From Anaeromyxobacter terrae (GTDB lineage: Bacteria > Myxococcota > Myxococcia > Myxococcales > Anaeromyxobacteraceae): a stretch of 64,000 nucleotides of DNA. This document shows positions 3,477-11,038 of this stretch, piece by piece; positions within the stretch are counted from its first letter, which is position 1; every line of letters begins with the position of its first letter. The position numbers were made by a program, and so were the translations under genes. Location: positions 1 through 64,000 of the forward strand of contig NZ_JALCYY010000004.1 in assembly GCF_022690685.1 (NCBI RefSeq), in the 5' to 3' direction. Under the pieces are notes generated by a model that worked only from the letters and a program-made list of their open reading frames with translations, was not told where the DNA came from and did not search any database.

Positions 3477-3736
3477 CATGGGCTGAAGCCCGCGTCGCGC
3501 CGCGCGCCTCCCAGCGGCGACACGCTGTGTCAATCGTCGACCCAACCGGTCGGACCCGCCCGCGACCCGGCGGAAGAAGTCGAGCGCATCCATCGTTCAG
3601 CGAGAGTCCGGGCTGGCGCGGGTTCCGCCGGCCTTGAACCGGAGTGCCTTACACGCGGCGTTTTGCCACGCGGCCAGTAGGCTCGGCCTGGTGGCGCCCG
3701 CCCCCGCGAAGGAGTGGCGTGATAGTTTCCGGCCAC
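3477..3736. other. Intergenic region between the TRAP remnant and the repeat lipoprotein gene
   Basis: No gene is convincing on either strand. A perfect TTGACA hexamer occurs on the minus strand near 3529-3534 and could belong to a promoter for the glc genes, but no matching -10 element at 17 bases was found. The plus-strand reading frame of the lipoprotein stays open back to 3644, but its extension lacks a signal peptide at its start and was not used. Confidence 0.4.
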
Positions 3737-6700
3737 ATGCTCCGCACCCGCTTCCTCGCCCGGGCGATCGCGGCCGCGCTGCTCATCTCGGCGGCGTGCG
3801 GCACCCGCGAAGCCGCGTCGCCCCCCTCCCCCACGACGCCCGGGACGCCGACGAGCGACGGGACCCAGGGCGCGGTGAGCCCGGTCGGAGGGAACGTCAC
3901 CGCGCGCGGCGGCGGGCTCGTCGTCGCGGTCCCGGCGGGCGCGATCGCGTCGCCCATCGACATCACCATCACCGAGATCACGAACCACGCGCCGAACGGC
4001 ACGGGCTCGGCCTACCGGCTCGGACCGGAGGGAACGAAGTTCTCCGCGCCCGTCGCGCTCATCTTCCGCGTCGATCCCGACGTGTCCGTCTTCGACCTCG
4101 CCGTCGCGACCCAGGATCCCTCCGGCTTCTGGGTCCGGGTCCCCGGCGTCCGGCGCGATCCGGTCGCGCACACCGTCGTCGCGACCACCACGCACTTCAG
4201 CGACTGGGCGCTCATCCCCGCCCCCTCCGATCGCGACCTCTCGGGCGTGTTCCAGATCTCCTCGACTCGCGACGGCGTCGTGGCGCACGGGATCTCGCGC
4301 CTCTACTTCGAGAGCGGCGACTCGAGCTCGAACTACTACCTCCAGTCCGGCCGGATCACCGTCGACTCGCCCATCTCCATCCCGGGCGCCACCTGCACCC
4401 CCACCGCGGCGACGCAGGACGTCGGGCCGAACATCGCCGAGATCCTCTCGAACCCGACCCGCTTCCGCTGGGGCGCGAGCGGGGTCTGGGACACCGCCTG
4501 CACCACGGACACCGGCACGCAGGTGCCGGGTTTCTCGTACGTCGTCTTCGACAACGTCGGCATCAACTATCTCCAGTGCGCGCGGGCCTACCTCGCGCCG
4601 CCCGTGATCCAGACGGACAAGGTCCTCGGCCAGTACCGCATCGACTGCGGGACCCAGGGCACCATCGACGCCGACTGGCACTTCGAGCGCTGCGTGCCGG
4701 GAGAGGTCTGCCAGTCCACGAACATCTGCAAGACCGCCGCGATCAGCTGCGACTCGGGCCTCCCGCTCTGCGTCGAGAACGGCAACGTCACGAACGGCAC
4801 GTACTGCGGGACGAACCTGGTCTGCGGCGACGGCGTGTGCAACGCGTGCACGGTCGGCGAGGCGTGCACGCCCACCAACGTCTGCCACGTGGGCGGGATC
4901 ACCTGCGACACCGGCTTCAAGGTGTGCACCGACACCGGCACGTCGCTCGCGAACGGCACGACCTGCGGCACGAACCAGGTCTGCTTCACCGGGACCTGCG
5001 TCGCCTGCACCGCCGGTGTGACCTGCGCGACGAACCCCAACAAGTGCGTTGCCGGAACGACCTCCTGCGCGACCGGGCAGGAGGTGTGCGTCGACACGGC
5101 CACGCCCATCGCCGCCGGTACCTCCTGCGGTACGAACCAGGTCTGCACCGGCACCGGCACCTGCATCGCGTGCACGGCGGGCGTGGCCTGCTCCACGAAC
5201 GCGAACAAGTGCGTCGCGGGAACGACCTCGTGCGCCACGGGCGCGGAGACGTGCGAGAACACCGCGACGAACATCGCCAACGGCACGACCTGCGACGTGA
5301 ACCCGAGCGTCCCCGAGGTCTGCTACAACGGCACCTGCTCCGCCTGCACCGCCGGCACCGCCTGCGCGACGAACCCCAACAAGTGCGTCGCCGGCACGAC
5401 GTCCTGCGCCACCGGCCAGGAGCTCTGCGTCGACACGACCACGCCGATCGCAAACGGCACGACCTGCGACGTGAACCCGAGCGTCCCCGAGGTGTGCCTC
5501 AACGGTACGTGCAACGCCTGCACGGCCGGGGGCACCTGCTCTACGAACGCGAACCCGTGCGTCGCGGGCACGTTCTCCTGCGCCACCGGCCAGCAGACCT
5601 GCGAGAACACGGCGACGAGCATCGCAGCCGGCACGACCTGCGGCGTGAACCAGGTCTGCAACGGCACCGGCACCTGCATCGCCTGCACGGCCGCGCTGTC
5701 CTGCTCCACGAACCCGAACAACTGCGTGGCGGGCACGACCTCCTGCTCCACGGGCGCCCAGACCTGCGTGAACACGGCGACGAACCTGCCGGACGGCACC
5801 GTGTGCGGCACCAACCAGGTCTGCAACGGCGGGACCTGCTCCGCCTGCACCGCTGGCACCGCCTGCTCGACGAACCCCAACAAGTGCGTCGCGGGCGTGT
5901 CCGACTGCTCCACCGGCACCGAGCGGTGCATCGACACGACGACGATCATCGCGAACGGCACGACCTGCGACGTGAACCCGAGCGTCCCCGAGGTCTGCTT
6001 CAACGGGACGTGCAGCGCCTGCACGGCGGGCCTCGCCTGCGCGACGAACCCGGGCGCCGCGTGCCTCACGGGCGTCACCTCCTGCTCGACCGGCACCGAG
6101 ACCTGCGTCGACTCGACGCCCAAGCCGAACGGCACGAGCTGCGGGTCGAACCTGGTCTGCAACGGCGGGGCGTGCCTCGCCTGCACCGCGGGCCTGTCCT
6201 GCTCGACGAACCCGAACGCCGCCTGCCTGACGGGCGTGACGTCCTGCTCGACCGGCACCGAGACCTGCATCGACTCGACGCCCAAGCCGAACGGCACCAC
6301 CTGCGGCACGAACCTGGTCTGTAGCGGCGGCACGTGCTCCGCCTGCACCGCCGGCACCGCCTGCGTCGGGAATCCGGATCCCGCCTGCCACGACGGCGTC
6401 ACCTCCTGCTCGACCGGCACCGAGGCCTGCGTCGACGGCGCGGCGAAGGCGAACGGCACCGCCTGCGGAACGGACCTGGTGTGCAGCGGCGGCGTCTGCT
6501 CCGCCTGCACGGCGAACCTCGCCTGCACGACGAACCCGGACACGGCCTGTCACGACGGCGTCACCTCGTGCGCCACCGGCACCCAGACCTGCATCGACGG
6601 CGCCGCGAAGACGAACGGCACCACGTGCGGCACGAACCTGGTCTGCAATGGCGGGGCGTGCAGCGCCTGCACGGCGAACGCGGCCTGCACCGCCAACCCG

Positions 6701-9700
6701 GACGCGGCCTGCCACGACGGCGTCACCTCCTGCTCGACCGGCACCCAGACCTGCCTCGACTCGACGGCGAAGCCGAACGGGACGAGCTGCGGCCTGAACC
6801 AGGTCTGCAACGGCGGCGCCTGCACCACCTGTACCGGGGGCCTCTCCTGCACGAACCCGGGCTCGTGCTTCCTCGGCACGACGTCGTGCTCGACCGGCTC
6901 GCAGACGTGCGTCGACACCGCGACGCCCGCGCCGAACGGCACCACCTGCGGCACGAACCAGGTCTGCAACGCGGGGACGTGCACCGCCTGCACGGCCGGA
7001 ACCGCCTGCTCGACGAACTCGAACCCCTGCGTCACCGGCCTCACCTCCTGCTCGTCGGGCGTGCAGACCTGCGAGAACACCTCGACGGCCGTCACGAATG
7101 GCACCTCCTGCGGCACGAACCTCGTCTGCAGCGCCGGCGCCTGCTCCGCCTGCACCGCCGGCACCGCCTGCACCACGAACCCGGGCGCCGCCTGCCTCAA
7201 CGGCGTGACGTCCTGCTCGACCGGGGCCGAGGTCTGCGTCGACTCGACGCCGAAGGGCGACGGGACGAGCTGCGGGACGAACATGGTCTGCTCGGGCGGC
7301 GTGTGCGGCTCCTGCACCGCGGGGCTCGACTGCGCGACGAACCCGAGCACGTGCCTCGGCGGGACGACCTCCTGCTCGACCGGCACCCAGGCGTGCCTCG
7401 ACGATCCGCTGAAGCCGAAGACGAACGGGACGGCCTGCGGGACGAACCAGGTCTGCAGCGGCGGCGTGTGCTCCGCCTGCACCGCCGGGCTCTCCTGCTC
7501 CGGGAACCCTGACCCGTGCCTCGCCGGCACGACCTCCTGCTCGAGCGGGACCTCGACCTGCGTCAACTCGACGACGGTGCTCGCGAACGGCACGAGCTGC
7601 GGGACGAACCTCTTCTGCAGCGCCGGCGTCTGCTCGCCCTGCACGGCGGGCGTCGCCTGCACGACGAACCCCGATCCGTGCCACACCGGCACGACCTCCT
7701 GCTCCACCGGGACGTCCACCTGTGTGGATACGGCGACGGCGGAGCCGAACGGCACGCTCTGCGGGACGAACCTCGTCTGTAACGGCGGCGCCTGCTCGGC
7801 CTGCACCGCGAACCAGGCCTGCTCGACGAACTCCGACCGGTGCCGGGCCGGCACCACCTCGTGCACGACCGGCACGCAGACCTGCGAGAACTCGGCGACG
7901 GTCCTCGCGAACGGCACGACCTGCGGCGTGAACGAGGTGTGCAACGGAGGCGTCTGCTCGACCTGCACCGCGAACCTGCCGTGCACCACGAACCCGAACC
8001 CGTGCCTCGACGGCACCACCTCCTGCACGAGCGGCACCCAGACCTGCGTCGACACGGCGACGCCGAAGTCGAACGGCACGACCTGCGGGACGAACCTCGT
8101 CTGCAACGCCGGCACCTGCAGCTCCTGCGTCGCCGGCACGGACTGCACGCCCGCGGGCGCCTGCGTCGTGTCCCAGACCTCGTGCTCGACCGGCACCCAG
8201 ACCTGTGTCGCGACGACCACCCCGCTCGCGAACGGCACGACCTGCGGCGCGAACCAGGTCTGCAACGGCGGGACTTGCACCGCGTGCACCGCGGGGGCGG
8301 CCTGCGCGACGAATACGAACAAGTGCGCCGCCGGGACGACCTCGTGCTCGACCGGCACCCAGACCTGCGAGAACACGACGACGAACCTCGCGAACGGCAC
8401 GAGCTGCGGCACGAACCAGGTCTGCGACGCGGGCGCCTGCGTGGCCTGCGCGGCGGGCGGCGCGTGCTCGACGAACCCGAACCCCTGCGTGGACGGCGTC
8501 GAGTCCTGCTCCACGGGCTCCCTCACCTGCGCCGACACGACCACCGTGAAGGCGAACGGCAGCTCGTGCGGCACGAACCAGGTGTGCAACGGCGGGAGCT
8601 GCGTCGCTTGCACCGCGGGCGCCGCCTGCACCACCAACCCGAACATCTGCGTCGCGGGCGTCACCTCCTGCGCGACGGGCGCGCAGGTTTGCGACAACGG
8701 CACGGTCGCGGCGAACGAGGGCGCCACTTGCGGCACGGACCTCGTCTGCCGGTCGGGATCGTGCATCCGCGTCGTCAGCGGCACGCGGCTCGTCACGCGC
8801 TGGACGACGGGCCTCGGCTGCTCGACGGCGGCGCCCTGTCAGACGACCACGGTCGCGCCGGACGTCGTCTCGCTCACCGCGCAGGTGGAGGCGATCGGGC
8901 CGGACGGCACGCGCTACCCCGGCTCGTTCTCGCCGTCGGGCTCCTTCTCGATCTCGGGCGTTCCCCCGGGCGCGTACACCCTCGCGTTCACGGACGGCGC
9001 CGGCGTCACGCACTTCTACGAGACCTCCGCGAGCACCGTCGACCTCGGCTACGACGTCCTCGGCCGCGAGGCCACCGCCGCGAGCGCCCCGACGCCGGTC
9101 ACCATCTCGGTCTCCGGGCTCTCCGGCTGGATCGACAGCGACGACGTGCAGCTCGCCGCGCCCGACGTGGACGCGTGGGACGCGCCGATCACCGGCGCGG
9201 AGATCCTCGCCGGCGAGGTGGGCGGCAGCGTCGTGGAGGACTGGTCGGCGAGCTCGATCGGGCGGGCGCTGAACCTCGTCGGCGGGACGGACGCGGTCTG
9301 GGTGCACCAGCTCTCGACCTCGACGGTGACGAGCGGGGTCCGCGCGTTCGCCTACCAGGCGGTGACCCGCTATGCCGCGACGACGTTCGGCGCCGACATG
9401 ACGAGCGGGGTCGCCGCGAGCCTCACCGCGCCGCTCGGCACGACGACGCAGACCGGGACGCTCACCATCGACTGGCGCACGAGCCAGTTCGAGGGGCTCC
9501 TCGCGTCGATGGGCCCCGGCGCCCAGCCCGCCTCGAACCCGCACGCGCTCGTCGTCCGTGCGCACCCCTACGCGCTCTCGAGCCCGGCCCCGGTCGCCGC
9601 CGGCGGCGCGCTCGAGCTCTTCCGTCTCGTCCAGCCGGCCGCCACCGCGGACGTGGATCTGACCGCGCTCACTCCGCCGATCGTCTACGGCCGGTATCTG

Positions 9701-10213
9701 GACTCTGCGCTCTGGTCGGAGTCGCGAGCGGCCACGTTCACGGCCCGCGTGAGCTACACCGCGCCGGGCGCCGTCACCGCGCTCGACGCGCTCGCGACCA
9801 TCGCGCGGCGCGAGCCGATGCTGCCCGCGCCCCCGTCGCCGATCGTGCCGGCGGTCGGCCCCGTCCAGGCGCCGCTCGTGAACGGGCTCGACGCCCTCGG
9901 CCCGCTCGGCGCCGTCGGCACGACCCCGACGATCGCCTGGTCCGCCCCGACGGTGGGTGCGCCCTCGAGCTACGGCGTCACCCTGCGCGAGCTGTACGCC
10001 GCGGGGACCGCGAGCGCGACGCGGGCGGTCGCGACCTGGGCCGTCACGGGCCGCTCGATCACGCTGCCGGCGGGCCTCGTCGTCGCCGGCAAGACGTACT
10101 ACGTCGAGATCACCGCGTACGCGCGTACGCCGGAGCAGCTCGACACCGCGCCCAACCGGTCCTCCAACGTGGGCAGCGACGCGACGACGCTGACCTCCAC
10201 GTTCACGCCCTGA
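3737..10213 (+). CDS. Giant secreted lipoprotein with 25 tandem cysteine-rich repeats
   Basis: A 2158-residue protein with a lipoprotein-type signal (hydrophobic stretch, then SAAC with Cys21), so probably exported and lipid-anchored. Residues about 50-150 resemble a ZU5-like domain (SPVGGNVTARGGGLVVAVPA). Residues about 319-1677 are 25 tandem units of about 54 residues following C-x2-CTAG-x-C-x-TNP-x2-C-x2-G-x-TSC-x6-C...NGT-x-CGTN-x-VC-x3-C, with roughly eight cysteines each, probably disulfide-bonded. The C-terminal 480 residues have no repeats and end in a fibronectin type III-like stretch. ATG 3737 is chosen because it gives a proper signal peptide. Similar NGTxCGTNxVC repeats are common in large myxobacterial surface proteins, often given unreliable names. 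The function is unknown; a surface stalk or adhesin is a guess. Confidence 0.85.
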   Translation: MLRTRFLARAIAAALLISAACGTREAASPPSPTTPGTPTSDGTQGAVSPVGGNVTARGGGLVVAVPAGAIASPIDITITEITNHAPNGTGSAYRLGPEGTKFSAPVALIFRVDPDVSVFDLAVATQDPSGFWVRVPGVRRDPVAHTVVATTTHFSDWALIPAPSDRDLSGVFQISSTRDGVVAHGISRLYFESGDSSSNYYLQSGRITVDSPISIPGATCTPTAATQDVGPNIAEILSNPTRFRWGASGVWDTACTTDTGTQVPGFSYVVFDNVGINYLQCARAYLAPPVIQTDKVLGQYRIDCGTQGTIDADWHFERCVPGEVCQSTNICKTAAISCDSGLPLCVENGNVTNGTYCGTNLVCGDGVCNACTVGEACTPTNVCHVGGITCDTGFKVCTDTGTSLANGTTCGTNQVCFTGTCVACTAGVTCATNPNKCVAGTTSCATGQEVCVDTATPIAAGTSCGTNQVCTGTGTCIACTAGVACSTNANKCVAGTTSCATGAETCENTATNIANGTTCDVNPSVPEVCYNGTCSACTAGTACATNPNKCVAGTTSCATGQELCVDTTTPIANGTTCDVNPSVPEVCLNGTCNACTAGGTCSTNANPCVAGTFSCATGQQTCENTATSIAAGTTCGVNQVCNGTGTCIACTAALSCSTNPNNCVAGTTSCSTGAQTCVNTATNLPDGTVCGTNQVCNGGTCSACTAGTACSTNPNKCVAGVSDCSTGTERCIDTTTIIANGTTCDVNPSVPEVCFNGTCSACTAGLACATNPGAACLTGVTSCSTGTETCVDSTPKPNGTSCGSNLVCNGGACLACTAGLSCSTNPNAACLTGVTSCSTGTETCIDSTPKPNGTTCGTNLVCSGGTCSACTAGTACVGNPDPACHDGVTSCSTGTEACVDGAAKANGTACGTDLVCSGGVCSACTANLACTTNPDTACHDGVTSCATGTQTCIDGAAKTNGTTCGTNLVCNGGACSACTANAACTANPDAACHDGVTSCSTGTQTCLDSTAKPNGTSCGLNQVCNGGACTTCTGGLSCTNPGSCFLGTTSCSTGSQTCVDTATPAPNGTTCGTNQVCNAGTCTACTAGTACSTNSNPCVTGLTSCSSGVQTCENTSTAVTNGTSCGTNLVCSAGACSACTAGTACTTNPGAACLNGVTSCSTGAEVCVDSTPKGDGTSCGTNMVCSGGVCGSCTAGLDCATNPSTCLGGTTSCSTGTQACLDDPLKPKTNGTACGTNQVCSGGVCSACTAGLSCSGNPDPCLAGTTSCSSGTSTCVNSTTVLANGTSCGTNLFCSAGVCSPCTAGVACTTNPDPCHTGTTSCSTGTSTCVDTATAEPNGTLCGTNLVCNGGACSACTANQACSTNSDRCRAGTTSCTTGTQTCENSATVLANGTTCGVNEVCNGGVCSTCTANLPCTTNPNPCLDGTTSCTSGTQTCVDTATPKSNGTTCGTNLVCNAGTCSSCVAGTDCTPAGACVVSQTSCSTGTQTCVATTTPLANGTTCGANQVCNGGTCTACTAGAACATNTNKCAAGTTSCSTGTQTCENTTTNLANGTSCGTNQVCDAGACVACAAGGACSTNPNPCVDGVESCSTGSLTCADTTTVKANGSSCGTNQVCNGGSCVACTAGAACTTNPNICVAGVTSCATGAQVCDNGTVAANEGATCGTDLVCRSGSCIRVVSGTRLVTRWTTGLGCSTAAPCQTTTVAPDVVSLTAQVEAIGPDGTRYPGSFSPSGSFSISGVPPGAYTLAFTDGAGVTHFYETSASTVDLGYDVLGREATAASAPTPVTISVSGLSGWIDSDDVQLAAPDVDAWDAPITGAEILAGEVGGSVVEDWSASSIGRALNLVGGTDAVWVHQLSTSTVTSGVRAFAYQAVTRYAATTFGADMTSGVAASLTAPLGTTTQTGTLTIDWRTSQFEGLLASMGPGAQPASNPHALVVRAHPYALSSPAPVAAGGALELFRLVQPAATADVDLTALTPPIVYGRYLDSALWSESRAATFTARVSYTAPGAVTALDALATIARREPMLPAPPSPIVPAVGPVQAPLVNGLDALGPLGAVGTTPTIAWSAPTVGAPSSYGVTLRELYAAGTASATRAVATWAVTGRSITLPAGLVVAGKTYYVEITAYARTPEQLDTAPNRSSNVGSDATTLTSTFTP
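4691..8767 (+). repeat. 25 tandem copies of a ~162-bp coding repeat
   Basis: The array encodes the cysteine-rich units of the lipoprotein. Units average about 163 bp. Subfamilies are visible: three units (the 4th, 5th and 8th) carry the same insert encoding DVNPSVPEVC, with identical DNA over more than 30 bases. Units 9 and 10 share LTGVTSCSTGTETC followed by DSTPKPNGT, and units 11 to 13 share ACHDGVTSC. The lack of stop codons in several frames on both strands is a by-product of repeated GC-rich codons. Confidence 0.9.
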
Positions 10214-10336
10214 GCGACGGGGCAGTTCGCGAGCAGCCCCCGGTGAGATCATGCGGCCGCAGGCCGCGTGCCCTCTCCGGGCCGACGTCCGCACGGGGGC
10301 TCGCCCGGACGTCCGCCCTGCTCCCACCTTGGCTCC

Positions 10337-11038
10337 ATGCCGTGGGAGCTCCTCCTCGCCGCCGCGTGTCTGTCCTCGGCCCTCGTCTGGGCCTCCCTCG
10401 CGGCGCGACGGGCGGGGGTGGTCCGCGGCCTCGCCCTTCACTCCTTGTTCGGGGGTGCGGCGGCGTTCGGGTTCGCCGTGATCGCCTACGACCTCCTGGA
10501 CGGGGTGGGCGCGCGGGTCCAGTGGGAGCGGCTCGCCGGGGCCGATCTCGCCGAGGCCGCGCCGCTCGCGGGCCTGATCGGCCTCGTCGAGGAGGGCGCG
10601 AAGCTCGCGGGGCTGCTCCTCGTCGTGGAGCGGGGGTGGCGGACGCGGACCGTGATGGGCGCGGCGGTCGGCGTCTCGGCCGGGTTCGCGGCGCTCGAGG
10701 CGCTCACGACGCTCCAGGGCTGGGACTCGCCGGTCGCGCTCGCGCGCGTGGCGCTCGGCCCCGCCGCGCACGCGATGCTCGCGCTCCCCATCGGCCTCGG
10801 CGTCGCTGCCGTCGCGCGTGGCGGGCGGGGCGCGTGGGGCTCCCTCGCGGGCGGGCTCGCCCTGTCCGCGGCGCTCCACGCCGCGGGAGACCTCAGCCTC
10901 GCCTCCGGCGCCGGGAAGCTCGGCTACGGCGCGGCGCTCCTCGCCGCGCCGCTCTGGCTCTTCCTCCGCACGCGCCTCCCGGCGCGCGGCGTCGAGGCGC
11001 CGGTCGCGGTGGCACGCCAGAGCGCCGTCCGCCCGTAG
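10337..11038 (+). CDS. PrsW-like intramembrane glutamic protease family protein
   Basis: A 233-residue membrane protein with about seven hydrophobic segments. Family motifs are in order: EEGAK (the EExxK motif), FAALEA (FxxxE), a histidine in PAAHAM, and HAAGD near the C-terminus. These are the conserved residues of the PrsW/YhfE-type proteases, of which Bacillus PrsW starts cleavage of an anti-sigma factor. The substrate here is unknown and no anti-sigma factor gene is adjacent. The start at 10337 gives a hydrophobic N-terminus (MPWELLLAAACL); an upstream in-frame ATG at 10268 adds only a proline- and arginine-rich tail. It converges on the lipase gene with one base between the stop codons. 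Confidence 0.75.
   Translation: MPWELLLAAACLSSALVWASLAARRAGVVRGLALHSLFGGAAAFGFAVIAYDLLDGVGARVQWERLAGADLAEAAPLAGLIGLVEEGAKLAGLLLVVERGWRTRTVMGAAVGVSAGFAALEALTTLQGWDSPVALARVALGPAAHAMLALPIGLGVAAVARGGRGAWGSLAGGLALSAALHAAGDLSLASGAGKLGYGAALLAAPLWLFLRTRLPARGVEAPVAVARQSAVRP

Follow-up and report, generated by a model that had tools for sequence, protein, structure and literature searches.

What a myxobacterium would do with a protein that contains some two hundred regularly spaced cysteines is the question raised by a 64,000-nucleotide stretch of DNA from Anaeromyxobacter terrae (contig NZ_JALCYY010000004.1, positions 1 to 64,000; here called the window). A single gene in the window encodes a predicted lipoprotein with an array of cysteine-rich units between an N-terminal base and a C-terminal module (Table 1). 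The product is probably a lipid-anchored protein of the outer envelope in which a long, disulfide-stabilized stalk holds the C-terminal module at its distal end. In the proposed arrangement, the lipid anchor and a base made of a ZU5 domain and a second beta domain would lie at the membrane, the eight-cysteine units would form the stalk, and the beta-sandwich module at the far end would probably bind matrix or a surface polymer. The stalk could reach tens of nanometres, with an upper value near 100 nm for units spanning 2.5-4 nm each, and the protein would be exposed on the cell surface. The reading of the array as a long stalk is well supported by comparison with related genes, in which other stalk repeats have been swapped onto the same base.

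The cysteine array and its predicted fold

Read in its natural register, from the cysteine codon at 4691 to the cysteine codon ending at 8764, the array consists of exactly 25 units of 50-56 residues joined by constant two-residue linkers (usually x-Ala), and Tandem Repeats Finder reports a 162-nucleotide period across 4953-8680. An earlier note, made from the sequence of the window, had described 25 units of about 54 residues at 4691-8767 with nearly 200 regularly spaced cysteines; the count of units is exact, the boundaries are right to within one codon, and the cysteines number exactly 200 (eight per unit). The whole protein has 207 cysteines (1 in the lipobox, 4 in the N-terminal domain, 200 in the array, and 2 in the C-terminal module). 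The array is rich in Thr (20%), Cys (15%), and Gly (13%), and charged and aromatic residues are very scarce. Only eight aromatic residues (Phe or Tyr, no Trp) occur among its 1359 residues, making a disulfide core the natural stabilizer. The even number of cysteines and their conservation suggest four disulfides per unit. All eight consensus cysteines are present in 206 of 220 full-length units drawn from about 20 proteins, and apparent losses are mostly shifted cysteines. Disulfide pairs were also sought in the co-loss of cysteines, but nearly all units keep eight and the losses are mostly alignment shifts, so that no pairing was readable. A thin hint that pairs may lie within half-units is given by the stand-alone half-units with the last four cysteines in two relatives (G011 and G031). 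A disulfide-forming pathway is present in the host genome (5.65 Mb in 142 contigs), which has genes for VKOR and for several proteins of the DsbA family; DsbB was not found there.

The named congeners used for comparison were A. soli SG29, A. oryzisoli SG63, and A. oryzae Red232, of which A. soli is the nearest relative of the window genome (about 85-93% DNA identity). The A. soli ortholog matches the window protein in its number of units (25) and of cysteines (207), and the array cysteines align at 200 of 200 positions. Amino acid identity between the two proteins is 83% in the array, 81% in the N-terminal part, and 89% in the C-terminal part, with ratios of nonsynonymous to synonymous substitution rates (dN/dS) of 0.36, 0.35, and 0.17, respectively, and substitutions in the array fall mainly at third codon positions. 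The whole-gene alignment, the retention of every array cysteine, the dN/dS of the array, and the third-position substitutions together argue that the array is neither a chance frame nor a reading of the wrong strand. Units within the window array share a mean of 74% and a maximum of 88% DNA identity. With units this divergent, and with 25 of them in the separately assembled A. soli genome too, the copy number is not an assembly guess. The units of the two proteins pair one to one across most of the array. An insertion variant of the NPSVPEV or VPEV type lies in different units of the A. soli array (L051 5853-9776) and the window array, suggesting exchange between units while the total stayed at 25.

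The plus-strand frame at 3644-10213 is free of stop codons over 2189 codons and likely starts at the ATG at 3737; the GTG at 3719, with AAGGAG upstream at 3709-3714, is an alternative start. An antisense open reading frame (3530-10879, minus strand, 2449 residues) was rejected as a shadow of the GC-rich (guanine- and cytosine-rich) frame, as its GC pattern mirrors that of the sense frame and as homology, the lipobox, and selection back the plus frame. The assignment as a lipoprotein in the earlier note is borne out by a signal peptide that terminates in a lipobox-like SAAC, the cysteine of which is kept in the orthologs (SAAC, LAC, or AAC). The mature protein begins with CGTREAA and thus has Gly rather than Lys at position +2 and Ala at position +7, and both residues are also found in its three nearest orthologs. 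In Myxococcus xanthus, lipoproteins of the inner membrane are marked by Lys at +2, and FibA cannot be sorted to the matrix without Ala at +7 (PMC3222651). By analogy, the residues of the window protein are a lead toward an outer location, short of proof. The protein ends in TLTSTFTP without a C-terminal helix tag and is therefore not of the MYXO-CTERM type.

Table 1. Features of the repeat lipoprotein gene and its neighbour (window coordinates)
Feature	Position	Strand	Basis
Coding sequence, repeat lipoprotein, 2158 residues	3737..10213	+	Open frame; whole-gene A. soli ortholog; purifying selection
Signal peptide MLRTRFLARAIAAALLISAAC, lipid-attachment Cys21	3737..3799	+	Sequence; Cys kept in orthologs
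ZU5 domain, stalk base	3854..4237	+	Foldseek, VIA; Pfam ZU5 below cut-off
HFS tripeptide (residues 153-155), candidate self-cleavage site	4193..4201	+	Conservation; loop position; analogy to PIDD
Second beta domain, four Cys; faint likeness to the TbpB/fHbp lipoprotein barrel	4223..4690	+	VIA Z about 7 (weak); modest pLDDT
Array of 25 eight-Cys units, about 54 residues each	4691..8764	+	Repeat calls, Cys register, A. soli alignment; predicted fold
C-terminal module, 481 residues, myxobacteria-wide family	8768..10210	+	Found in 98/195 Myxococcota genomes
First part of C-terminal module, beta sandwich like rhamnogalacturonan-lyase domain II or carboxypeptidase-regulatory domain	8741..9067	+	Weak Pfam; VIA Z 7.0
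Last part of C-terminal module, fibronectin-III-like fold	9884..10126	+	VIA Z 7.2, root-mean-square deviation 2.3 over 70 residues; middling Z
Neighbour gene, PrsW-family intramembrane metalloprotease	10268..11038	+	Pfam PF13367, E 1.9e-9; context, not shown to belong

AlphaFold2, run in two jobs on an alignment of staggered units, predicts an identical five-strand pattern in every unit, with a predicted local distance difference test (pLDDT) score of about 80-90 in one job and 84-94 in the other. The units are thus predicted to have a defined fold, which disposes of the possibility, raised in the earlier note, that structure prediction would show none. The very long rod proposed there stands in part: length is supported because relatives carry other stalk repeats on this base, but straight stacking is not, since the predicted template-modelling (pTM) score of the whole models is only 0.30 and 0.46 and the orientation between units is therefore not settled. 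The matches returned by Foldseek and VIA for the array models refer to the C-terminal module or the ZU5 domain rather than to the unit alone. No Pfam or NCBIfam family covers the repeat of the window protein, and the earlier statement that such repeats have no known function stands. NCBIfam, TIGR04201 included, gave no match for the window protein at E up to 1 or for the A. oryzisoli protein at 0.05, and no description of the repeat or of its pairing with a ZU5 base was found in the family libraries and literature searched.

The matches that do occur point to the ADAMTS/ADAM cysteine-rich subdomain. The Pfam family ADAMTS_CR_2 (PF17771) scores 10.9 bits in the window protein, below its gathering threshold of 27.3; a two-unit query from the window reaches 17.5 bits, and the relative in G011 reaches 40.9 bits, above the cut-off. 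The ADAMTS cysteine-rich domain is matched weakly by 14 of 16 sampled units (best E 3e-4) and by a two-unit stretch of A. oryzisoli (E 1.3e-5), and the top PDB profile matches of the unit are ADAMTS-1, -5, and -4 (E 0.03-0.13). These weak but consistent matches suggest that the repeat is kin to the subdomain, with which it shares a DGTxCGxxxxCxxGxC half-unit. The earlier note mentions neither this kinship nor the ZU5 base and its possible self-cleavage site, nor the C-terminal module, which many myxobacteria have. The window protein differs from the ADAMTS and ADAM proteins in its score below the Pfam cut-off, its 25 tandem copies, and the absence of a protease, as Pfam matches no metalloprotease or disintegrin domain in it.

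Relatives and the exchange of stalks

The genome collection was scanned with alignment A2, as no sufficiently conserved pattern came out of the diverse alignment A1. The unit profile matches 37 of 195 Myxococcota genomes, agreeing with the earlier note that such repeats recur in myxobacteria, and arrays of up to about 22 units occur in another family of the order. No relative of the array was found in viral contigs, plasmids, or phages, and the window gene is the sole array copy found in its own genome. Proteins in which cysteine units stand between a ZU5 base and the C-terminal module have 25 units in the window, 25 in A. soli, 8 in A. oryzae, 5 in A. oryzisoli, and 5 in G063. Other genomes place different repeats on this base. 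In G004, the ZU5 base carries ten Big_9/cadherin-like repeats (E 9.6e-201), an arrangement also seen in G001 and G002; Big_9 is a recognized stalk domain of fibrillar adhesins (PMC8286594). In G009, the ZU5 base is followed by one cysteine unit, a different cysteine-rich repeat, and the C-terminal module, and in G007 it carries Calx-beta repeats. The G007 gene occupies the same slot as the window gene, between genes for a flavin adenine dinucleotide (FAD) oxidase on one side and PrsW, hydrolase, and kinase genes on the other, in the opposite orientation. With the ZU5 domains of the two proteins sharing only 34% identity, the G007 gene may have taken the place of a direct ortholog instead of being one itself. 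Since the array can be exchanged for known stalk repeats with both neighbours unchanged, it is most simply a spacer.

Three related loci have features of their own. The G007 gene (L090 2243-12721, minus strand) is a 3492-codon open frame in which the ZU5 base precedes a very long Calx-beta run. The middle of the G009 protein (L071 596-4234, minus strand) consists mostly of a PDGTACNDGNACTxxDTCQAGxCTG repeat that no Pfam or NCBIfam model matches. In a Myxococcaceae array protein (L050 2383-4902, plus strand), the far end (residues 526-828 of the frame) matches the N-terminal model of AgmC (adventurous gliding) with an E of 4e-15, below the cut-off.

The C-terminal module has a wider distribution than the array. 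In the genomes that have it, it often makes up, together with a lipobox, the whole of an open frame of about 520 codons, and in other species it stands on PKD/Ig domains or directly behind a lipobox. Pfam matches its first part to fn3_3 (E 0.009) and CarboxypepD_reg (E 0.008), both under the cut-off. A partial second copy (42% identity over 155 residues) is present in the same genome as the window gene at G000:C134:12983-13444.

Several points weigh against a surface stalk with a binding tip. The count of four disulfides is drawn from even numbers and conservation and not from coordinates; the placement of one unit against the next is uncertain at the pTM values obtained, and a straight rod is not established. 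The sorting rules for lipoproteins were worked out in M. xanthus, and Anaeromyxobacter may not follow them. A known adhesive domain was not recognized in the C-terminal module, which bears only a weak likeness to rhamnogalacturonan-lyase domain II and fibronectin III and is badly modelled in its middle. Additionally, G010, G011, G015, and G112 have the ZU5 base and a few cysteine units without the C-terminal module, so that the stalk does not always carry this tip.

The ZU5 base and competing explanations

The absence of the C-terminal module in these relatives, together with the array at L049 that has no further domain, could instead mean that the array itself is the binding surface (a multivalent adhesin or decoy) and that the C-terminal module is secondary, and some repeats of fibrillar adhesins are both stalk and adhesive (PMC8286594). 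This is unlikely, since the units are small, contain few aromatic or charged side chains, and give way in sister species to repeats of unrelated kinds. It is less likely still that the 200 cysteines bind metals or act as a thiol store, an idea suggested by the metal-respiring habit of the genus, the very high cysteine content, and the CxxC at each of the 24 unit junctions. The protein contains no CC, CxC, or CxxCH and no metallothionein-like cluster, its eight evenly conserved cysteines per unit belong to a confidently predicted beta fold, its nearest relatives are extracellular disulfide domains, and cysteine-poor stalk repeats stand on the same base in sister species.

A further proposal concerns the base and would add to the stalk reading rather than replace it. 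The ZU5 domain of the window protein has the ZU5 fold, with matches to ankyrin-B (Foldseek, E 8e-7) and a VIA Z of 13.4 over 118 residues (Pfam ZU5, at E 0.02, is under the cut-off), and the self-cleaving FIIND of CARD8 is also matched (VIA Z 7.4). The domain is closed by THFSDW, of which HFS lies between model strands 126-133 and 136-141 (mature-protein numbering) and is kept in most family members. PIDD self-cleaves at HF/S directly after each of its ZU5 domains, and the fragments of CARD8 remain associated (PMC3210808); large surface proteins of bacteria that carry adhesion modules have also been proposed to process themselves through ZU5 domains (PMC3482391). Since the HFS is the self-cleavage motif of PIDD and lies in the expected loop, the stalk may be cut at its base, leaving the array and C-terminal module held non-covalently on a lipid-anchored stub from which they would be shed or pulled off under load. 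This is possible but doubtful. The sequence motif of autoproteolytic ZU5 domains is present and cleavage itself is a prediction; HFS may be structural in bacterial ZU5-like domains, and the motif is absent in three family members (GFGDW in G011, DLHDW in G063, and HLSDW in one copy in G010). Somewhat more speculative again is a whole class of modular myxobacterial surface lipoproteins, in which a ZU5 base would carry interchangeable stalks (ADAMTS-like disulfide units, another cysteine-rich repeat, cadherin-like repeats, or Calx-beta repeats) and self-cleavage at HF/S would give the protein a breakaway joint, with the lipid anchor on one side and a stalk of tens of nanometres on the other.

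Likeness to known systems and the neighbouring gene

Surface stalk proteins are a known kind of protein. The 25-unit array is a genuine and conserved feature of a protein from a modular lipoprotein family and most likely forms a disulfide-rich stalk. Like the fibrillar adhesins with Big_9, cadherin-like, or Calx-beta repeats, the window protein combines an anchor, tandem folded stalk repeats, and a terminal module, and its relatives put Big_9 or Calx-beta repeats in the same position on the same ZU5 base. It differs from them in its small disulfide-rich units, its N-terminal lipid anchor, and its lack of a known adhesive domain. TraA (PA14, TIGR04201 cysteine-rich repeats, and MYXO-CTERM) is likewise a myxobacterial surface protein with a tandem cysteine-rich region proposed to be a rigid stalk (PMC3325183), but the window protein has another repeat family and an N-terminal lipobox and lacks PA14 and MYXO-CTERM. 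The variable repeat number among relatives (5, 8, 25, and 25, between species) recalls the Periscope proteins SasG, Rib, and Sgo_0707, which have near-identical copies and fast length change (PMC8201768). Full Periscope behaviour is ruled out by the low DNA identity between units in the window, which for the most part correspond one to one with those of A. soli. The autoproteolytic ZU5-UPA proteins (PIDD, CARD8, and NLRP1) share the ZU5 fold and the HFS in the cleavage loop, whereas the window protein is a predicted extracellular bacterial lipoprotein in which cleavage is predicted only.

With this array, the known bacterial stalk domains gain a disulfide-rich repeat that has no name yet, and the natural swaps indicate that such a repeat can replace cadherin-like or Calx-beta stalks on a shared base. 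Through its ZU5 domain, a surface lipoprotein of a bacterium is connected with signalling proteins of animals in which this domain cleaves itself. The units may also serve as small, modular, covalently braced rods.

Release of surface proteins linked to PrsW has been proposed elsewhere; here the PrsW gene counts as genomic context only. It starts 55 bases past the array gene in the window. The ZU5 genes of A. soli and G007 also have a PrsW gene next to them, with a 1.8-kb insert between the two in A. soli.

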